DNA of 64,000 nt from Psychrobacillus sp. NEAU-3TGS (GTDB taxonomy: Bacteria; Bacillota; Bacilli; Bacillales_A; Planococcaceae). Position 1 is the stretch's first letter. Each line of letters opens with the position of its first letter. Below are positions 10,187-34,012 of the stretch, piece by piece. The position numbers and the translations under genes are program-made. The stretch is from positions 453,610 through 517,609 of the forward strand of contig NZ_JAPNOZ010000012.1 in assembly GCF_029955155.1 (NCBI RefSeq), in the 5' to 3' direction. The notes beneath the pieces are model-generated. The model did no database searches and was not told where the DNA came from. It was given only the letters and a program-made list of their open reading frames with translations.

Positions 10187-10423
10187 TATAAATATAATAA
10201 TTTTAAAATCATGAAAAAGCCTTTAAAATAAGCGTTTTCGCAGCACTATTATTCTAAAATAATATCTAAATATCATCTTATTAATCTTATAAATAAATGG
10301 ATTTTTTATCATTATAACTAATATATTAGTTATTTTTACCAATTTAAGAAATATATGATTATTTTTACTTTTCACTTTTTGTTCTGTATACTATTAATTA
10401 GTTCGACAACCGCAATAAATTGA

Positions 10424-10484
10424 ACTCAGACAAAAATCGCCACGTTGTGTGGCAATGCCTGAGTGATCAACATTCAGTTGATCA
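10424..10484 (+). other. Structured leader-like region upstream of pepF
   Basis: ACTCAG (10424-10429) can pair with CTGAGT (10459-10464) and encloses a GCCAC/GTGGC hairpin. It is followed directly by the palindrome TGATCAAC...GTTGATCA (10464-10484). The GCCAC hairpin resembles one at 39271-39300. No known riboswitch class is recognised. Confidence 0.35.
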
Positions 10485-24941: not shown

Positions 24942-25721
24942 TTATTTATATAGTTCTTCTCTTCTATCCGAAAAGACTGGAATGCGCGCACGTATTTCTT
25001 CAATTTCTTCTAGATTTAGATCGAGGATTTCAACGCACTCCTCGTTTGCACCATTCCATATAATTTCTCCCCAAGGGCTTATTACCATGGAATTTCCACC
25101 AAATTCATTATGAGGATCGCTTCCCACACGATTCACTGCTATGAGAAAACTTTGGTTTTCAATTGCCCTTGCTTGCAAAAGTATTTTCCAATGATCGATT
25201 CGTTTAGCCGGCCATTGCGCTGGTATAAACATCACCTTAGCACCGTTTAACGAATGCGCTCTTGTCCATTCAGGAAAACGCAAATCATAACAAATGATTC
25301 CGCCCATCTTAACTCCATCAAGCGTAAATATATTCTTCTCACTACCAGCTTCTAGGTAAAGATGTTCATCCATTAATTTAATCAAATGAGCTTTGTCATA
25401 TTCCCCAACAACTTCACCCAAAGAATTCGTCACATACATAGTGTTATAAAATTTGTCCCCTTTTTTGATCGAAACAGAACCTCCAACAATATGTATATTT
25501 AATTCTTTTGAGAGTTGAGATAATAATTTTTTCGTTTCTTCGCCGTTCACATCAGCGATTTCTTCAAGACGAGTTAGATCATAACCCGTATTCCACATTT
25601 CAGGTAATACTACTGTATTTGCCCCTAAAGATTCGGCTTCTCTAATCTTTTCCTCTACCTTGAGAAAATTTTCTTTTGGCTCACCAAAAACAATATCTAA
25701 TTGAACACAAGCAACTTTCAT
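24942..25721 (-). CDS. mtnU: Carbon-nitrogen hydrolase, MtnU-like omega-amidase
   Basis: Nitrilase-superfamily amidase, 259 aa from the chosen start. The Glu-Lys-Cys triad is visible in VLPEMW, KAHLI and ICYDLRFPEW. I choose the ATG of MKVACVQLD (GGTGG 7 nt upstream) over a longer frame. It is divergent from an MtnE-like aminotransferase, as ykrU and ykrV are in B. subtilis. MtnU-type enzymes hydrolyse the 2-oxoglutaramate left when glutamine donates its amino group to 4-methylthio-2-oxobutyrate. The exact substrate here is inferred from this pairing. Confidence 0.8.
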   Translation of the reverse strand: MKVACVQLDIVFGEPKENFLKVEEKIREAESLGANTVVLPEMWNTGYDLTRLEEIADVNGEETKKLLSQLSKELNIHIVGGSVSIKKGDKFYNTMYVTNSLGEVVGEYDKAHLIKLMDEHLYLEAGSEKNIFTLDGVKMGGIICYDLRFPEWTRAHSLNGAKVMFIPAQWPAKRIDHWKILLQARAIENQSFLIAVNRVGSDPHNEFGGNSMVISPWGEIIWNGANEECVEILDLNLEEIEEIRARIPVFSDRREELYK

Positions 25722-25806
25722 CTCGACACCACCTATAGACATAATACTAAAAAGATTATAAGATTTGTCTAATATATGCAACTATTAAAAAAAAGAGGTT
25801 ATGTAC

Positions 25807-27377: not shown

Positions 27378-27884
27378 TCACTTCTCTATTCTTTTTGGTT
27401 CCGTCGCATCTTTCTCTATCGGATAAAATTGATTGGCCCCTGTTTCTGAATCAAATTTACGTTGAAATTCCATCCCCGTAACTTCTGCTAGAACGAGATC
27501 CACTGTTATAACTGGATTTACCCCCTTGATAAAATGACCTCCAAAAATATTTCCTTTTTGATCACACATTGTCCCGTGAAAATGAGTCTCGTATTCTCCT
27601 TCTCTCTTACAAATAACTCCCGTACCTTGTAAAAACTCGATTGGTCCTTCCTTAACTACAAGGTCATTATATCCAACGCCAATTATCGAGGCATCATTCG
27701 GAACTAAATACACAAACCCACTTTTTTGAAAGCTACCAAAACAGCTGATAATCGTTGCATATTCTATCTTATTTTCTGCACATAATTGTTCGATTCCTTC
27801 TAGCAGATCTGTTCCGTATACTAATCTCGCACCAATTGTTTTGCCGAGTTGGCCAGTCGCATAATTTACTCTTACTGCTGACAT
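27378..27884 (-). CDS. PPC/DUF296 domain protein
   Basis: Single-domain protein, 168 aa, of the plant and prokaryote conserved (PPC, DUF296) fold. The signature is the HFHGTMCDQKGNIFGGHFI segment (histidines probably binding metal) and the late VDLVLAEVTGMEFQRKFD strand. Stand-alone bacterial members are often annotated as DNA-binding by homology to plant AT-hook proteins, but no AT-hook is present here and function is unknown. It is monocistronic and divergent from the methionine operon. Confidence 0.75.
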   Translation of the reverse strand: MSAVRVNYATGQLGKTIGARLVYGTDLLEGIEQLCAENKIEYATIISCFGSFQKSGFVYLVPNDASIIGVGYNDLVVKEGPIEFLQGTGVICKREGEYETHFHGTMCDQKGNIFGGHFIKGVNPVITVDLVLAEVTGMEFQRKFDSETGANQFYPIEKDATEPKRIEK

Positions 27885-27994: not shown

Positions 27995-28032
27995 AATTCT
28001 CATGGAACTGATGAAAAATTTAATAGCTTACA

Positions 28033-28148
28033 TCTCTTATCAAGAGTAGCTGAGGGACTGGCCCGATGAAGCTCGGCAACCATCTACATAATAGTTATGT
28101 AGAAAGGTGCTAAATCCTGCAAAACGTATTGTTTTGGAAGATAAGAGA
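28033..28148 (+). ncRNA. SAM-I (S-box) riboswitch
   Basis: The P1 helix is formed by CTCTTAT (28034-28040) and ATAAGAG (28141-28147). Between them are the class hallmarks AGAGTAGCTGAGGGACTGGC, GATGAAGCTCGGCAACC and a P3-like hairpin ACATAATAGTTATGT, then GGTGCTAAATCC. The 3' strand of P1 continues into AGAGAGG, which can instead pair with the terminator arm CCTCTCTT, the usual antitermination switch. SAM binding would stop transcription of the genes below. Confidence 0.95.
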
Positions 28149-28169
28149 GGACAAATTGTATTTTTATGT

Positions 28170-28205
28170 GCCTCTCTTTCTTTTGAAAGAGAGGCTTTTA
28201 TATTT
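28170..28205 (+). terminator. Riboswitch-controlled terminator
   Basis: GCCTCTCTTTC and GAAAGAGAGGC form a stem around TTTT, followed by TTTTATATTT. It lies 22 nt after the SAM-I aptamer and 38 nt before metQ. Confidence 0.9.
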
Positions 28206-28242
28206 ATTCAACATTCCTAATAATAATTAGGAGGAAGCAACA

Positions 28243-29064
28243 ATGAAGAAATTAGGTTTACTTTTATCAAGCGTACTATTAACTGGAGCACTTGCTGCGT
28301 GTGGCGATGATTCTAGTAGTGGAGATAAAGCGTTAGACGAAAAAAAATTAGTTATTGGTGTAACTGCTGGACCGCATGAACAGATCGTAGAAAAAGCAAA
28401 AGAAGTAGCTGCTAAAGATGGATTAGAAGTGGATATTAAAGTTTTTTCTGACTACATATTACCAAACACAGCTTTATCTCAAGGTGACTTAGATGCTAAC
28501 AGTTACCAACACGAACCTTTCTTAAACACGTTTAACGAAGACCATGGCACGGACTTAGTACCGGTTGGAAAAACGATACTAAACCCAATGGGCGTGTATT
28601 CGGATAAATATAAGTCAATTGATGAACTTCCAGATGGTGCAACTTTCGGATTACCAAATGACCCAACAAATGGCGCTCGTGCGTTATATATTTTAGAAGA
28701 AAATGGACTTATCAAAATTAAAGAAGACAAACGAGAAACTGCCTCTATTTATGACCTAGAGGAAAATCCAAAAAACTTAAAATTTATTGAGCTAGAAGCT
28801 GCTCAAATTCCAAAGCAGTTAAGTGAAGTAGACGCTGCTGCAATCAATACAAATTTTGCACTAGATGCTGGGATCAATCCAAAAGAAGATTCTATTTTAC
28901 TAGAGTCATCTAACTCTCCATATGTGAACTATGTGGTTGTCCGTGCGGAGAATAAAGATGATCCTACGATTCAAAAATTTGTAAAAGCTTATCAATCAGA
29001 AGAAGTAAAACAATTCATCGAAGAAGAATTTCAAGGATCTGTATTACCTAGCTGGGATGAGTAA
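28243..29064 (+). CDS. metQ: Methionine-binding lipoprotein MetQ
   Basis: Membrane-anchored receptor of a methionine ABC importer, 273 aa. The signal peptide ends in the lipobox LAAC (Cys20). The NlpA/MetQ family marks are GVTAGPHEQIVEKAKEVA, QGDLDANSYQHEPFL and the DPTNGARAL loop. AGGAGG precedes the ATG. It is first gene below the SAM riboswitch and is followed by a hairpin (29075-29098) before metN, so it is probably made in excess of the ATPase and permease. Confidence 0.93.
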   Translation: MKKLGLLLSSVLLTGALAACGDDSSSGDKALDEKKLVIGVTAGPHEQIVEKAKEVAAKDGLEVDIKVFSDYILPNTALSQGDLDANSYQHEPFLNTFNEDHGTDLVPVGKTILNPMGVYSDKYKSIDELPDGATFGLPNDPTNGARALYILEENGLIKIKEDKRETASIYDLEENPKNLKFIELEAAQIPKQLSEVDAAAINTNFALDAGINPKEDSILLESSNSPYVNYVVVRAENKDDPTIQKFVKAYQSEEVKQFIEEEFQGSVLPSWDE

Positions 29065-29074
29065 AGAATTTGAG

Positions 29075-29098
29075 AACGTTACCGACTTCGGTAACGTT
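29075..29098 (+). terminator. Intercistronic hairpin between metQ and metN
   Basis: AACGTTACCG and CGGTAACGTT form a 10-bp stem with loop ACTT, followed by a short broken T run (TTCTTT). Probably a partial terminator or 3'-end protector for metQ mRNA. Confidence 0.55.
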
Positions 29099-29121
29099 TT
29101 CTTTAGAAAGGAAGACATCTA

Positions 29122-30141
29122 ATGATCGTTTTAGAAAATATTTCAAAAGAATTCAATAGTAAAAACGGCAAAGTAAAGGCAGTAAACAATGTTAACATCC
29201 ATGTAAAAAAAGGAGAAATTCATGGAGTTATTGGATATAGTGGTGCTGGTAAAAGTACACTTATTCGCTGTGTAAATTTACTTGAAAGACCAACAGAAGG
29301 CAAGGTTTATATTAATGGAGTAGAAACCACTTTCCTCCCCCTTCCCAAATTACGTGAAGCTCGCAATAAAATAGGAATGATCTTCCAAGGATTTAACCTA
29401 CTAAAAACAGCTACTGTTTATGATAATATTGCGATTCCTCTTAAACTTCTTGGTTATAACAAAGCAGAAGTTCAAAATAGAGCAGAAAAATATCTAGAGA
29501 TTGTTGGATTAACAGATAAACATAAAAATTATCCAAATCAGTTGTCTGGTGGTCAAAAGCAACGTGTTGCTATTGCAAGAGCCCTTGCACAAGAACCAGA
29601 AATTCTGTTAAGTGATGAAGCAACTAGCGCACTTGACCCAGAAACAACCGATTCTATTTTAGATCTACTTTTAAAAATAAATAAAGATCTAGGAATAACT
29701 ATTTTGCTCATCACCCACGAGATGAATGTTATCCAAAAAATTTGTGATCATGTATATGTCATGGAAAACGGGCATGTTGTAGAACAAAATAATGCGATTC
29801 AATTATTTACAAAGCCTACACATTCTACAACTAAAAAGTTTTTAAGTACGATTAGTCAGCGCAATCTGTCCCCTGCTTTAATCTCACAATTACATGTAAC
29901 AGGAGCGGTTACTCGGTTAACATTCGTAGGTGAAAGCACTGGGCAGCCATTACTTGCAGAAGTAAGTCAAAGATTTAATGTTAAACCAAATATACTAACT
30001 GCCAATATTATCGAATTGAAAAATGGCATTGTTGGAAACATTGTTATTCATTTAATAGGAGAAAACGACCAAGTAAACGCTGCATTACAGTTTTTAGAAG
30101 AAAGTGGCGTAGGTGTTGAGAACTTGGAGGGACAATCATGA
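29122..30141 (+). CDS. metN: Methionine ABC transporter ATPase MetN
   Basis: ATPase of 339 aa. Walker A GYSGAGKST is near residues 38-46, followed by LSGGQKQ and Walker B ILLSDEATSALDP. The C-terminal 75 residues form the NIL-type regulatory domain that binds methionine and inhibits transport in MetN. It overlaps metI by 4 bp (ATGA). Confidence 0.94.
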   Translation: MIVLENISKEFNSKNGKVKAVNNVNIHVKKGEIHGVIGYSGAGKSTLIRCVNLLERPTEGKVYINGVETTFLPLPKLREARNKIGMIFQGFNLLKTATVYDNIAIPLKLLGYNKAEVQNRAEKYLEIVGLTDKHKNYPNQLSGGQKQRVAIARALAQEPEILLSDEATSALDPETTDSILDLLLKINKDLGITILLITHEMNVIQKICDHVYVMENGHVVEQNNAIQLFTKPTHSTTKKFLSTISQRNLSPALISQLHVTGAVTRLTFVGESTGQPLLAEVSQRFNVKPNILTANIIELKNGIVGNIVIHLIGENDQVNAALQFLEESGVGVENLEGQS

Positions 30142-30809
30142 GCAGACTAGATACATTTATCAACCAATGGCTACCGATCATCGGAAAATCGGTTGTGGAA
30201 ACATTTCAAATGGTTGGAATTTCTTTGTTTTTCTCCGTGCTTATCGGAATACCGCTAGGAATTTTAATCGTATTAACTAGACCAGGTCAAGCATTGGCAA
30301 ATAAGTTTTTATACCAAACAAGCAACTTATTGATCAATATACTTCGTTCTATTCCATTTATCATTTTACTATTTTTTATTCTACCATTTACAAAATTTAT
30401 CGTTGGTACGACTATTGGGGTAAAAGGCGTAATCGTCCCTCTCGTTATTTATACAGCACCGTATATAGCACGTTTGATGGAGTCTGCGCTACTCGAAGTG
30501 GAAAATGGTGTAATTGAAGCTTATACAGCGATGGGTATTAAAACTAGATCGATAATATGGCATGTATTATTACGCGAAGCACGCCCTTCTATTATTTTAG
30601 GTTTAACCATTTCTACTGTTAGTTTAATAGGAGCAACCGCAATGGCTGGTATGGTCGGTGCTGGAGGTCTTGGGGATTTAGCTTATCGTTTCGGACATTT
30701 GCGTTATGAAGTCGATGTTATGTATGCAACTGTCTTCATATTAATCATTCTTGTTCAAAGCATTCAATCTATTGGGAATAGACTTGCTGCAAAACTGAAA
30801 AAAGATTAG
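30138..30809 (+). CDS. metI: Methionine ABC transporter permease MetI
   Basis: Membrane permease, 223 aa, about five helices. The EAYTAMGIKTRSIIWHVLLREA segment is the cytoplasmic EAA loop that contacts MetN. Translation is coupled to metN by a 4-bp overlap. Only 14 bp separate its stop from the next gene, with no terminator, so transcription probably continues into the three metabolic genes below. Confidence 0.93.
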   Translation: MSRLDTFINQWLPIIGKSVVETFQMVGISLFFSVLIGIPLGILIVLTRPGQALANKFLYQTSNLLINILRSIPFIILLFFILPFTKFIVGTTIGVKGVIVPLVIYTAPYIARLMESALLEVENGVIEAYTAMGIKTRSIIWHVLLREARPSIILGLTISTVSLIGATAMAGMVGAGGLGDLAYRFGHLRYEVDVMYATVFILIILVQSIQSIGNRLAAKLKKD

Positions 30810-30823
30810 TTGGAGGTTCTTAC

Positions 30824-31600
30824 ATGTCGAACAATTTATATGTAGAAAAGAATGGCGCTATTGCTACTCTAATTTTTAATCGTGCAGAGAAGAAAAATTC
30901 ATTTTCCCTTGCTATGTTTAAACAGTTAGGAACAATATTAGAGGAATTGCAAATGGATTCCCAAGTTAAAGTACTGATCTTAAAAGGTGTTGACGAAACA
31001 GCTTTCTCAGCAGGTGCAGACATTTCGGAGTTTCTAGAAAATCGCTTTTCTGCCGTGAGGGCAAAAGATTATAATGATGCAACGCTCGAATCGATTGAAA
31101 AACTGTATCGTTTTACAAAGCCTACGATTGCCCTTATTAAAACTTTGGCAATCGGTGGCGGCTTAGAGCTTGCTAACTCCTGTGATTTTAGATTTGCAAC
31201 AGCTGGCAGTAAGCTTGGCATTACGGCCGCTAACATCGGCATTATTTATAATTTGACGAGCACCAAACGTTTGGTGAACTTAGTTGGGCCCTCTAAAGCA
31301 AAGGAATTATTATACACGGCTAAATTGATTGGTGCTGAAGAAGGAAAAGAAATTGGCTTAATCGATTATGTGTATGAAATGGATGAAATCGAAGAAAAGT
31401 GTTTAGAGTTTGCTGGACAAATTATTCGTAAATCCTCTGTTGCAAATAACGGCATTAAACAAGTTATCCAATCGATTATCGACGGTGAAAATGCAGAAAC
31501 AAAAGAAATTGAGCAACTTATTTTGGACTCATTTAGTTCAGAGGATTATAAAGAAGGCATTGCTGCGTTTTTAGAAAAAAGAAAACCTAATTTTTCATAA
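30824..31600 (+). CDS. Crotonase-fold (enoyl-CoA hydratase/isomerase family) protein
   Basis: Soluble acyl-CoA enzyme, 258 aa. FSAGADISEF and GGGLELANSCD supply the two oxyanion-hole regions. The Glu equivalent to E144 of rat enoyl-CoA hydratase is present (E115), but the position equivalent to E164 is Ala135 (LGITAANIG), so simple hydratase chemistry is doubtful and isomerase, hydrolase or another crotonase activity is possible. TTGGAGG lies before the ATG. It is fourth in the SAM-riboswitch operon. Confidence 0.82.
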   Translation: MSNNLYVEKNGAIATLIFNRAEKKNSFSLAMFKQLGTILEELQMDSQVKVLILKGVDETAFSAGADISEFLENRFSAVRAKDYNDATLESIEKLYRFTKPTIALIKTLAIGGGLELANSCDFRFATAGSKLGITAANIGIIYNLTSTKRLVNLVGPSKAKELLYTAKLIGAEEGKEIGLIDYVYEMDEIEEKCLEFAGQIIRKSSVANNGIKQVIQSIIDGENAETKEIEQLILDSFSSEDYKEGIAAFLEKRKPNFS

Positions 31601-31612
31601 GGAGTGGTACGC

Positions 31613-32746
31613 ATGTCAAACTTAGATTTATTGCTAAAAAATATAAGTTCAAATGAAAAATATCCCATAAATTTTGCTGAATTGGAACAAGCGGCTAAAG
31701 AGAAATTAGAAGTCGGTCCTTTTGGTTATATACGCTCTTCAGCTGGCGGTGAAGAAACACTTCGAAAAAACACAGAATCATTCGCTAAATATTCCATTGT
31801 TCCTAGGTTTCTAAACGACGTTTCTTCCTTAAATACTGAGATTACACTGTTCGGTCAAATATACCCTCACCCTCTTTTCGTTGCTCCTGTTGGAATGAAC
31901 AAAATCGCACATGAAGACGGAGAAATAGCAGTAGCAAAAGCAGCGGCGAAGTATAACTTCCCTTATATTCAAAGCACAGTTTCTAGCTATTCAATAGAAG
32001 AAGTTGCTGCCGCTACAGAAGGAAGCACCAAGTGGTTTCAATTGTATTGGTCGAAAAACAAAGAAATTTCCTATAATATCGTGAAAAGAGCTGAAAAAGC
32101 TGGGTACAAAGCGATTGTCGTAACAGTTGATACTGTTATGCTCGGATGGCGTGAAGAAGACTTACGCAACCAATTCTCACCGCTTAAAAAAGGGATAGCA
32201 AAAGGGAATTTTATAACGGATCCTGTGTTTATGGCTTCCCTTCCGGATCAAACGGAGGATTCTATTATTAATGGCATCGTAGATTATCTATATCATCCAT
32301 CCTTAAATTGGGACGCTATTGCCGAACTGAAAGAACAAACTTCTTTACCGATACTGATTAAAGGCATTCTGCATCCAGAAGATGCAAAACTTGCAATTGA
32401 AAAAGGAATCGATGGCATTATCGTATCAAATCACGGCGGACGCCAGTTAGATGGTGTAGTCGCAAGCATTGATGCCCTTCCTGAAATAGTGGAAGCAGTC
32501 GATGGTAGAATTCCGGTGTTATTTGATAGTGGTATCCGACGTGGCGCGGATGCATTGAAAGCTCTTGCACTTGGCGCTACTGCTGTATGTATCGGTCGTC
32601 CTTTTGTGTGGGGATTAGCTGCTGGTGGTCAAGCAGGCGTTGAACGGGTATTAGAAAGCTTCCTGGAAGAAACTAAAGTCTCCATTTCTTTAAGTGGTGT
32701 AAGGCATGTAACTGATCTTCATAAGTTGAAAGTAGTTAAAAGCTGA
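31613..32746 (+). CDS. FMN-dependent 2-hydroxyacid oxidase (lactate oxidase family)
   Basis: Probable L-2-hydroxyacid oxidase, 377 aa, giving a 2-oxo acid and, if an oxidase, hydrogen peroxide. The TIM-barrel flavin motifs are clear: VAPVGMNK, FQLYWSKNKE, the active-site VSNHGGRQLDG, and LFDSGIRRGADALKALALGA for phosphate binding. GGAGTGG precedes the ATG at 31613, preferred over an upstream GTG. It starts 12 bp after the crotonase gene. Substrate unknown; the SAM-regulated context makes a sulfur 2-hydroxy acid worth testing. Confidence 0.85.
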   Translation: MSNLDLLLKNISSNEKYPINFAELEQAAKEKLEVGPFGYIRSSAGGEETLRKNTESFAKYSIVPRFLNDVSSLNTEITLFGQIYPHPLFVAPVGMNKIAHEDGEIAVAKAAAKYNFPYIQSTVSSYSIEEVAAATEGSTKWFQLYWSKNKEISYNIVKRAEKAGYKAIVVTVDTVMLGWREEDLRNQFSPLKKGIAKGNFITDPVFMASLPDQTEDSIINGIVDYLYHPSLNWDAIAELKEQTSLPILIKGILHPEDAKLAIEKGIDGIIVSNHGGRQLDGVVASIDALPEIVEAVDGRIPVLFDSGIRRGADALKALALGATAVCIGRPFVWGLAAGGQAGVERVLESFLEETKVSISLSGVRHVTDLHKLKVVKS

Positions 32747-32771
32747 GGTTTATTAAAGGTGGTAAGTTTAG

Positions 32772-33962
32772 ATGGAACAGGCATTGAAAGGTATGAAAGT
32801 GGTCGATTTATCTCAAGTATTAGCCGGCCCCTATTGCACGATGGTTCTTGGAGATATGGGTGCGGATGTTGTTAAAGTAGAGAAATTTCCACTTGGGGAT
32901 GACACTCGTACGATGGGCCCTTATATTAATGAAGAAAGTTATATGTATATGATGGTAAACCGCAACAAACGCGGGGTTTGTCTTAACTTAAAAACAGATG
33001 AAGGTTTACAAGTTTTATATAAGTTAATAGAAGAAGCTGATGTTTTTATAGAAAACTATCGTCCAGGCGTTACGAAAAAACTTGGCATCGATTATGATAC
33101 GCTGAAATCGATCAATCCAGGGCTGATCTATTGTTCCATTTCAGGTTATGGTCAAACAGGTCCATACAAGAATAAAGGCGGATTTGACATAATGGCACAA
33201 GGTTTGTCTGGTCTAATCGATATGACTGGTGAACGTACTGGAAAACCTGTTAAAGTTGGGATTGCCATTCATGACATCGCAGCTGCTCAAACAGCTATTC
33301 AATCCATTCTAGCGGCCTATATTCACTGTCTAAAAACTGGGAACGGACAATATATAGATGTATCGCTAGTCGATTCAGGTCTAGCTTGGACAGTGTGGGA
33401 AGCGGCTGCCTTTTTCGGTAAAGGCGAAGTCCCTCGTAGAAACGGTACAGCACATCGTGTATCTGCTCCTTATCAAGGTTATAAAACAAAAGATGGCTTC
33501 ATCCTTATTGGTGCAGCAAATCAAAAGCTATGGGAAAAATTTTGCATGTCTGTGATTAACAAACCGGAATGGATCGAGGATGAACGATTTTTAACGAATA
33601 GTATACGAGCTCACCATGTAGATGAATTAGAAATTGAATTAGAAAATGTGTTGAAAGATCATGATTCCTCCTACTGGTTAGATATGTTAGATAAAAATGG
33701 TATCCCTTCTGGACCAATTTACTCGTACGATCAAACACTTGCAGATGAGCATATTCTTTCAAGAGAAATGATTTTAGAATATGAGCATCCTGTTGCTGGT
33801 GCGATGAAGACACTCGGCTTCCCTGCTAAATTCTCAGAGACACCAGGTCAATTTAAAAGCCCCGCTCCCCTTCTTGGTCAGCATAATAAAGAAGTGCTAA
33901 CGGAGCTTGGTTATTCGGTTGAAGAAATTGATACTTTCCAAAAGAAGCATGTCCTTTCTTAG
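32772..33962 (+). CDS. Family III CoA-transferase (CaiB/BaiF/Frc type)
   Basis: Transfers CoA between carboxylic acids through an enzyme-bound aspartyl anhydride, 396 aa. The N-terminal KVVDLSQVLAGPYCTMVLGD and VKVEKFPLGDDTR are family marks, and the likely catalytic Asp is D139 in GGFDIMAQG. The central GNGQYIDVSLVDSGL region is typical. It is last in the SAM-riboswitch operon, 25 bp after the oxidase gene and before a strong terminator. CaiB, crotonase and oxidase together suggest activation and conversion of a small organic acid. Confidence 0.87.
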   Translation: MEQALKGMKVVDLSQVLAGPYCTMVLGDMGADVVKVEKFPLGDDTRTMGPYINEESYMYMMVNRNKRGVCLNLKTDEGLQVLYKLIEEADVFIENYRPGVTKKLGIDYDTLKSINPGLIYCSISGYGQTGPYKNKGGFDIMAQGLSGLIDMTGERTGKPVKVGIAIHDIAAAQTAIQSILAAYIHCLKTGNGQYIDVSLVDSGLAWTVWEAAAFFGKGEVPRRNGTAHRVSAPYQGYKTKDGFILIGAANQKLWEKFCMSVINKPEWIEDERFLTNSIRAHHVDELEIELENVLKDHDSSYWLDMLDKNGIPSGPIYSYDQTLADEHILSREMILEYEHPVAGAMKTLGFPAKFSETPGQFKSPAPLLGQHNKEVLTELGYSVEEIDTFQKKHVLS

Positions 33963-33980
33963 AAAATGTAACTAAACTGA

Positions 33981-34012
33981 ACGTTTACTCGAATAGAGTA
34001 GACGTTTTTTTT
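33981..34012 (+). terminator. Terminator of the SAM-riboswitch operon
   Basis: ACGTTTACTC and GAGTAGACGT form a stem followed by eight T. No other strong terminator is seen between metI and here. Confidence 0.85.

Follow-up and report, generated by a model that had tools for sequence, protein, structure and literature searches.

The operon described here lies in a stretch of 64,000 nucleotides from Psychrobacillus sp. NEAU-3TGS (contig NZ_JAPNOZ010000012.1), which we call the window. It consists of an S-adenosylmethionine (SAM)-I riboswitch, or S-box leader, followed in order by metQ, metN, metI and the genes of a crotonase (ECH), a flavin mononucleotide (FMN)-dependent 2-hydroxyacid oxidase (FMNox) and a family-III coenzyme A (CoA)-transferase (CoAT). 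These six genes almost certainly constitute one SAM-controlled functional unit. The RF00162 leader, its terminator and metQ, metN and metI are common to the S-box-controlled metNIQ operons of Bacillales, whereas here three enzyme genes have been added and a gene for a PCC-domain protein stands divergently upstream. The single parts belong to known families; no description of their combination under a SAM riboswitch was found in searches of the open-licence literature. The window genome is 4.42 Mb in size, with 12 S-boxes and 6 NlpA-type binding proteins, and is Psychrobacillus-like; among the fetched loci of named species, the closest is that of Psychrobacillus lasiicapitis (ECH 99%, FMNox 98% and MetQ 93% identical).

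Organization of the operon

28034-28147, plus strand: SAM-I riboswitch aptamer (S-box leader); Rfam RF00162, 96.1 bits (gathering score 44.4)
28170-28195, plus strand: riboswitch terminator hairpin; 11 pairs, 6 of them G-C, T-rich tail (pattern scan); also visible in the RNA fold
28243-29064, plus strand: metQ, substrate-binding lipoprotein; PF03180 (Lipoprotein_9); TIGR00363 257.2 bits, cut-off 228.85; methionine-binding residues conserved
29072-29101, plus strand: stem-loop in the metQ-metN gap; 13 pairs, -19.2 kcal/mol, z -3.8; structured gap also in relatives
29122-30141, plus strand: metN, ABC ATPase with NIL domain; PF00005 (ABC_tran), PF09383 (NIL); TIGR02314 367.2 bits, under the cut-off of 499.7
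30138-30809, plus strand: metI, ABC permease; PF00528 (BPD_transp_1); NF008049 205.1 bits, slightly under the cut-off of 212
30824-31600, plus strand: crotonase-family protein (ECH); PF00378 (ECH_1); residues by alignment; predicted fold pLDDT 93.6
31613-32746, plus strand: FMN-dependent 2-hydroxyacid oxidase (FMNox); PF01070 (FMN_dh) 430 bits; all 17 aligned rows keep the catalytic residues
32772-33962, plus strand: family-III CoA-transferase (CoAT); PF02515 (CoA_transf_3) 441.6 bits; Asp168 at the position of Asp169 in E. coli CaiB
33979-34007, plus strand: terminator-like hairpin at the operon end; 12 pairs, T tail (pattern scan)

The Rfam match and the Pfam domains confirm the original prediction that a SAM-I riboswitch precedes metQ, metN and metI. 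RNA folding gives the aptamer and then the 11-pair hairpin with its T-rich tail (z -4.96 for 28030-28205), so that a predicted expression platform is present between the aptamer and metQ. The gaps of 14, 12 and 25 bp reported earlier for the enzyme trio are correct when FMNox starts at 31613 (ATG), which is better placed than 31604 (GTG), as it follows AAGGAG. FMNox and CoAT overlap by four bases in 11 of the 33 loci having both genes. The view that a terminator occurs at the end of the operon agrees with the hairpin at 33979-34007, but the stem-loop between metQ and metN had been overlooked. Since the pattern scan returned 5 such sites against a shuffled mean of 4.1, the lone site at the operon end carries little weight by itself. 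The metQ-metN stem-loop is absent from the terminator list of the scan; in the 35 loci with metQ-metN this gap folds at -14.7 kcal/mol or below, a comparison of energies only, the z of -3.8 being that of the window's own gap. In six loci (L110, L111, L117, L125, L129 and L146) the metQ-metN gap measures 184-374 bp and folds very stably (-60 to -146 kcal/mol), which would fit an insertion of structured intergenic repeats.

Conservation of the operon and its division in Oceanobacillus sojae

A scan of named genomes with the ECH alignment revealed a relative in 165 stretches, and 80 of these were retained; 38 loci (L109-L146, 55-99% identity) were taken as carrying the operon's ECH, and the remaining 42 encode generic crotonases at 30-39% identity, nearly all with the second Glu motif. 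The 38 loci span Psychrobacillus, Lysinibacillus, Planococcus, Oceanobacillus, Pseudogracilibacillus, Peribacillus, Cytobacillus, Siminovitchia, Thermolongibacillus, Brevibacillus and Bacillus species. All 38 carry metQ and CoAT, and chance is therefore excluded for the gene set; an S-box precedes metQ in 36, and metNI, FMNox and the PCC gene are found in 35, 33 and 28, respectively. Absence of the arrangement from related genomes had been named as a ground for abandoning the original prediction; the unit instead recurs under a SAM riboswitch and is conserved beyond Planococcaceae. What the prediction had missed are the co-occurrence of the PCC gene, the metQ-metN stem-loop, the loci with ECH and CoAT beside metQ alone (L119, L121, L123) and the lost hydratase Glu of ECH.

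The strongest evidence that the enzymes would belong to the SAM response is, as judged from gene arrangement, the divided operon of O. sojae. In both genomes of this species, S-box-metQ-ECH-CoAT stands alone (L119, L121), and a second operon (L218, L219) comprises an mtnE-like gene, an S-box, metN, metI and FMNox. The six genes are thus shared between two S-box operons, divided at the metQ-metN junction where the stem-loop lies. Siminovitchia (L123) likewise has metQ-ECH-CoAT without metNI. Because each half in O. sojae has its own SAM riboswitch, and ECH and CoAT stay linked to metQ, we regard the six genes as one functional unit. The two O. sojae genomes are also the only ones, among five with an FMNox-less operon, in which FMNox is found at E <= 1e-40.

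Sampling at successive taxonomic levels gives the range of the arrangement. In the family sample, FMNox matched at E <= 1e-100 in 41 of 151 genomes, and among 30 fetched loci (+/-1.5 kb) 21 show metI-ECH-FMNox-CoAT, 8 show metI-FMNox without ECH and CoAT, and 1 shows none of these. An S-box precedes metQ in 25 of the 28 larger stretches (L039-L066), the exceptions being L044 and L057, which end with the contig and contain no metQ, and L052, in which the S-box is truly absent. Within the order, ECH was found at E <= 1e-70 in 38 of 261 genomes (35 strong, at E <= 3.3e-121, and 3 weaker), and metI, FMNox and CoAT lie beside it in all 30 fetched loci. The class sample contains ECH in 21 of 398 genomes; metNI adjoins it in 11, whereas the more distant ECH of the other 10 has no metNI within 1.5 kb. 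FMNox at E <= 1e-100 occurs in 51 of the 398, and 6 of 24 newly fetched loci adjoin metI. At the level of the phylum, the only ECH match in 398 genomes is the window's own genome. Denser sampling around G388 and G313 (4 and 2 genomes) gave nothing new.

Removal of 16 duplicates with the same metI or metQ DNA reduced the 68 stretches of the linkage set to 52 distinct ones. ECH and CoAT occur together in 42 of them and are jointly missing from 10, the latter taking in the two O. sojae second operons, whose ECH and CoAT are elsewhere in the genome, and two contig-end stretches. The PCC gene is present in 32 of the 42 and in none of the 10; a role as an obligate partner is rejected by the 10 ECH-CoAT stretches that have no PCC match. 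On the oxidase tree, the core-only pair L044/L048 lies beside L049, and core-only L055 beside L128. L049 and L128 carry PCC, ECH and CoAT, L048 and L055 carry none of the three, and the contig of L044 ends too early to show them. These core-only loci are most simply read as the outcome of two joint losses of PCC, ECH and CoAT. The oxidase of the core-only Psychrobacillus relative (L048/L019) has one in-frame TGA.

The MetQNI importer

An NlpA-type lipoprotein, a NIL-domain ATPase and a permease occur together in the operon, the combination that marks MetNIQ. In Neisseria MetQ, Arg156, Asn213 and Asn238 hold the amino and carboxyl groups of the ligand (PMC6739813). By alignment, all 60 ECH-linked rows and all 7 core rows keep counterparts of these residues, and Phe98 is replaced by Tyr in 59 of the 60; the row sets include duplicate genomes and, for L066 or L122, a second MetQ copy where present. 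The Arg and Asn residues might also hold an alpha-hydroxy acid. The window genome has a second S-box metQ/I/N set (L077, 42-50% identical), so the cell has at least one other candidate methionine importer besides the operon at 28034. A second S-box-linked metQ copy at G000:C2:298394-299188 (L253, L076) is 55% identical, with one internal stop in the match.

The FMN oxidase

FMNox shares the FMN_dh fold family and the catalytic residues with the (S)-2-hydroxyacid oxidases, such as lactate oxidase, human HAO1 and glycolate oxidase. Tyr145, Asp173, Arg180, Lys250, His274 and Arg277 are conserved in 17 of 17 rows and Tyr39 in 16. It differs from lactate oxidase in having Gly94 at the Ala95 position, in all 17 rows, three of them stand-alone paralogues, and in scoring 280.4 bits against the L-lactate oxidase model TIGR02708, far under the cut-off of 645.5. 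Lactate 2-monooxygenase chains are matched at about 282 bits. A95G reduces the substrate specificity of lactate oxidase (PMC7312611).

Among 8 short loci with stand-alone FMNox genes, none has its own S-box. Two expectations about this gene were rejected. The metNI-linked oxidases do not form a single clade, as the 'trio' labels require 11 changes on the tree (mean of 26.3 in shuffles, none of 500 reaching so low a number), and the Brevibacillus rows form a separate clade. Nor is FMNox an obligate partner of ECH and CoAT, given its presence in 33 of 38 ECH loci and the absence of any FMNox-like gene at E <= 1e-40 from 3 of the 5 genomes with an FMNox-less operon.

The crotonase and the CoA-transferase

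ECH has Glu115 but Ala135 at the site of the second hydratase Glu, and so lacks the pair of Glu residues by which an enoyl-CoA hydratase is recognized; a hydratase of the DmdD or CaiD kind is disfavoured by these residues. Glu115 is kept in 11 of 11 rows of the ECH alignment, with Asp instead in Brevibacillus. Comparison with the methylmalonyl-CoA decarboxylase ScpB of E. coli (31% identity) shows that Tyr142 and Glu115 align with ScpB Tyr140 and Glu113, but Ala65 replaces ScpB His66; the score against the corresponding model, NF008506, is 154.3 bits (cut-off 257). Among the fold matches listed for the predicted ECH structure, the closest are the structural-genomics crotonases 4olq, 4wcz and 4k2n, and since no function is assigned to them, the fold comparison yields none for ECH. 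ScpB chains are not among the 50 matches listed, which carries no weight against the likeness to ScpB.

CoAT shares PF02515 and the catalytic Asp with CaiB, Frc, HadA and SUGCT, and remains under the equivalog cut-offs of the NCBIfam models listed, including that for formyl-CoA:oxalate CoA-transferase (TIGR03253, 268.6 bits against 504.2). Like the CaiB/CaiD carnitine pair of E. coli, CoAT and ECH bring together a family-III CoA-transferase and a crotonase in the neighbourhood of a transport function. The two pairs differ in that CaiD keeps Glu111 and Glu131, whereas ECH has Ala135; identities are 26% for CoAT to CaiB and 26% for ECH to CaiD.

Related CoAT-ECH pairs occur elsewhere. We read nine of the 12 stretches with a more distant ECH, leaving out L245, L247 and L251. 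An importer gene lies nearby in eight of the nine: TctC in L240, L241, L242, L246 and L249, TRAP in L250, and MFS in L243 and L244. It is next to the pair, or at most one gene further on, in L240, L241, L242, L246 and L250 and is about 2-3 kb off in L243, L244 and L249; no importer was seen near the pair in L248. A nickel-pincer isomerase group 22 gene (LarA-type, 537.7 bits, cut-off 400) is found in L242, LarC lies beside ECH in L248, and a D-2-hydroxyacid dehydrogenase is encoded in L249. These nine loci give a hint that such pairs may be linked to 2-hydroxy acids.

Neighbouring genes

27378-27884, minus strand: PCC (DUF296) domain protein, divergent from the riboswitch operon; PF03479 67.5 bits
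25801-26970, plus strand: mtnE-like aminotransferase that would convert the oxo acid to methionine as the final step; transaminase model NF005977, 671.8 bits (cut-off 494)
24942-25781, minus strand: mtnU-like omega-amidase (CN_hydrolase); PF00795; outside the control of the riboswitch at 28034

His101, His103 and His117 of the PCC protein are invariant in 8 rows, which suggests a metal site. The closest relatives with a solved structure are annotated as hypothetical or 'putative DNA-binding' proteins, and a search of the open-licence literature on DUF296 gave nothing helpful for its role. The two genes further upstream we take to be mtnE and mtnU. An mtnE-like gene lies beside metQ or metN in 32 of the 52 distinct stretches, and no NCBIfam model scores above its cut-off for the mtnU-like gene. 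Omega-amidases are described as disposing of ketoglutaramate and thereby making glutamine transamination irreversible (PMC6302742). Elsewhere in the window, a Bacillaceae-1 small RNA is found at 10415-10481 (RF01690, 49.8 bits).

Discussion

How the six genes might work together can be proposed from their families and residues. At low SAM the transcript would read through the riboswitch terminator, and MetQNI would import a methionine-like acid. FMNox would oxidise the L (S) form of a 2-hydroxy acid, most likely 2-hydroxy-4-methylthiobutyrate (HMTB), to 4-methylthio-2-oxobutyrate, which an MtnE-type aminotransferase would convert to methionine while MtnU disposes of the amide by-product. The A95G exchange reportedly extends the range of lactate oxidase to longer 2-hydroxy acids. 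We give an HMTB-like 2-hydroxy acid about an even chance of being the operon's substrate, and slightly less than that to the operon being an HMTB-type scavenging system under a SAM riboswitch, the epimerase detail aside. That the oxidase makes 4-methylthio-2-oxobutyrate, as the original prediction had it, is in keeping with the metNI-FMNox operons without ECH and CoAT (8 of 30) and with the mtnE-like gene before S-box-metN-metI-FMNox in O. sojae. The operon, its riboswitch, its conservation, its division in O. sojae and the residues are what the sequences show directly, whereas we infer the ligand, the direction of flow, the chemistry of CoAT and ECH and any role of the PCC gene.

Because of their families, CoAT would transfer CoA onto the acid and ECH would act on the CoA ester, and the site of ECH appears to fit enolate chemistry better than hydration. 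Our guess is that ECH epimerises the ester at C2, so that the other enantiomer becomes usable. It is prompted by the missing hydratase Glu, by the frequent company of FMNox and by HadA-type enzymes, HadA being described as a family-III CoA-transferase acting on amino-acid-derived 2-hydroxy acids. An epimerisation pair is, even so, a doubtful assignment. Equally tentative, and on the whole unlikely, is the full proposal that CoAT and a hydratase-dead ECH form a portable CoA-ester racemase for 2-hydroxy acids, which in Bacillales became coupled to a SAM riboswitch and MetQ and thereby lets the cell scavenge either enantiomer of the methionine hydroxy analogue, with sister pairs serving other imported acids.

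Several observations weigh against the HMTB-type scavenging reading as a whole. The MetQ pocket is, by its aligned residues, what would be expected for methionine itself. Gly94 also occurs in stand-alone FMNox paralogues (L067, L069, L074) and hence is no mark of the operon, and three of the five genomes whose ECH-CoAT operon lacks FMNox have no FMNox-like gene at E <= 1e-40. No S-box was found, Rfam search included, at L117 and L143 (Thermolongibacillus, Brevibacillus), nor at the core-only L052, and by Rfam the mtnE-like and mtnU-like genes in the window have none of their own. With a LarA-type gene beside the L242 pair, another racemase at that locus would be superfluous, and the 2-methylcitrate/citrate synthase II of the same locus suits a decarboxylase role of ECH.

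Such a role, in which CoAT activates a malonate-type acid, ECH, being of the methylmalonyl-CoA decarboxylase kind, removes CO2 and the link to the riboswitch is a sulfur-bearing dicarboxylate, seems to us improbable. It draws on the two residues shared with ScpB, the Tyr lying in a common N-[LI]-G-x-x-Y-N-L stretch, and on L242, where the pair adjoins both the synthase and a tricarboxylate-type importer. However, the His of ScpB is replaced, the NF008506 score falls short, FMNox would have no clear part, and we know of no malonate-type compound that feeds methionine. A route joining all three enzymes would result if FMNox were a monooxygenase like lactate 2-monooxygenase, forming 3-methylthiopropionate and CO2; CoAT would then activate the product, ECH would help in its breakdown, and methanethiol would enter methionine synthesis. 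Lactate monooxygenase has Gly at the Ala95 position, as FMNox does, and its chains are among the matches noted above. Yet by Pfam none of the operon's six genes encodes an acyl-CoA dehydrogenase, methylthioacryloyl-CoA hydratase needs both Glu residues and ECH has Ala135, and ECH-CoAT and FMNox each occur without the other, which together make this route quite improbable in our view.

It may also be asked whether the operon encodes an ordinary methionine importer whose riboswitch transcript runs into general organic-acid genes with no link to methionine. The methionine-type pocket of MetQ and the company that related CoAT-ECH pairs keep with other kinds of importer would suit this explanation. 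Against it, the gene order is maintained over several genera and families, S-box-metQ-ECH-CoAT exists without metNI, both O. sojae halves carry an S-box, and the gaps are short, with FMNox and CoAT overlapping in a third of the loci that have both; we therefore consider it rather unlikely.

If the proposed scavenging of methionine-like hydroxy acids is true, the S-box regulon would cover the use of such acids in addition to the transport and synthesis of methionine, and the operon would provide a natural role and a gene set for the bacterial use of methionine hydroxy analogue, an animal feed. For a crotonase/CoA-transferase pair and a PCC-domain gene that bear only family names in databases, it would also offer a physiological setting for the first time. 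The split operon of O. sojae and the genomes without ECH and CoAT make the proposal directly testable.

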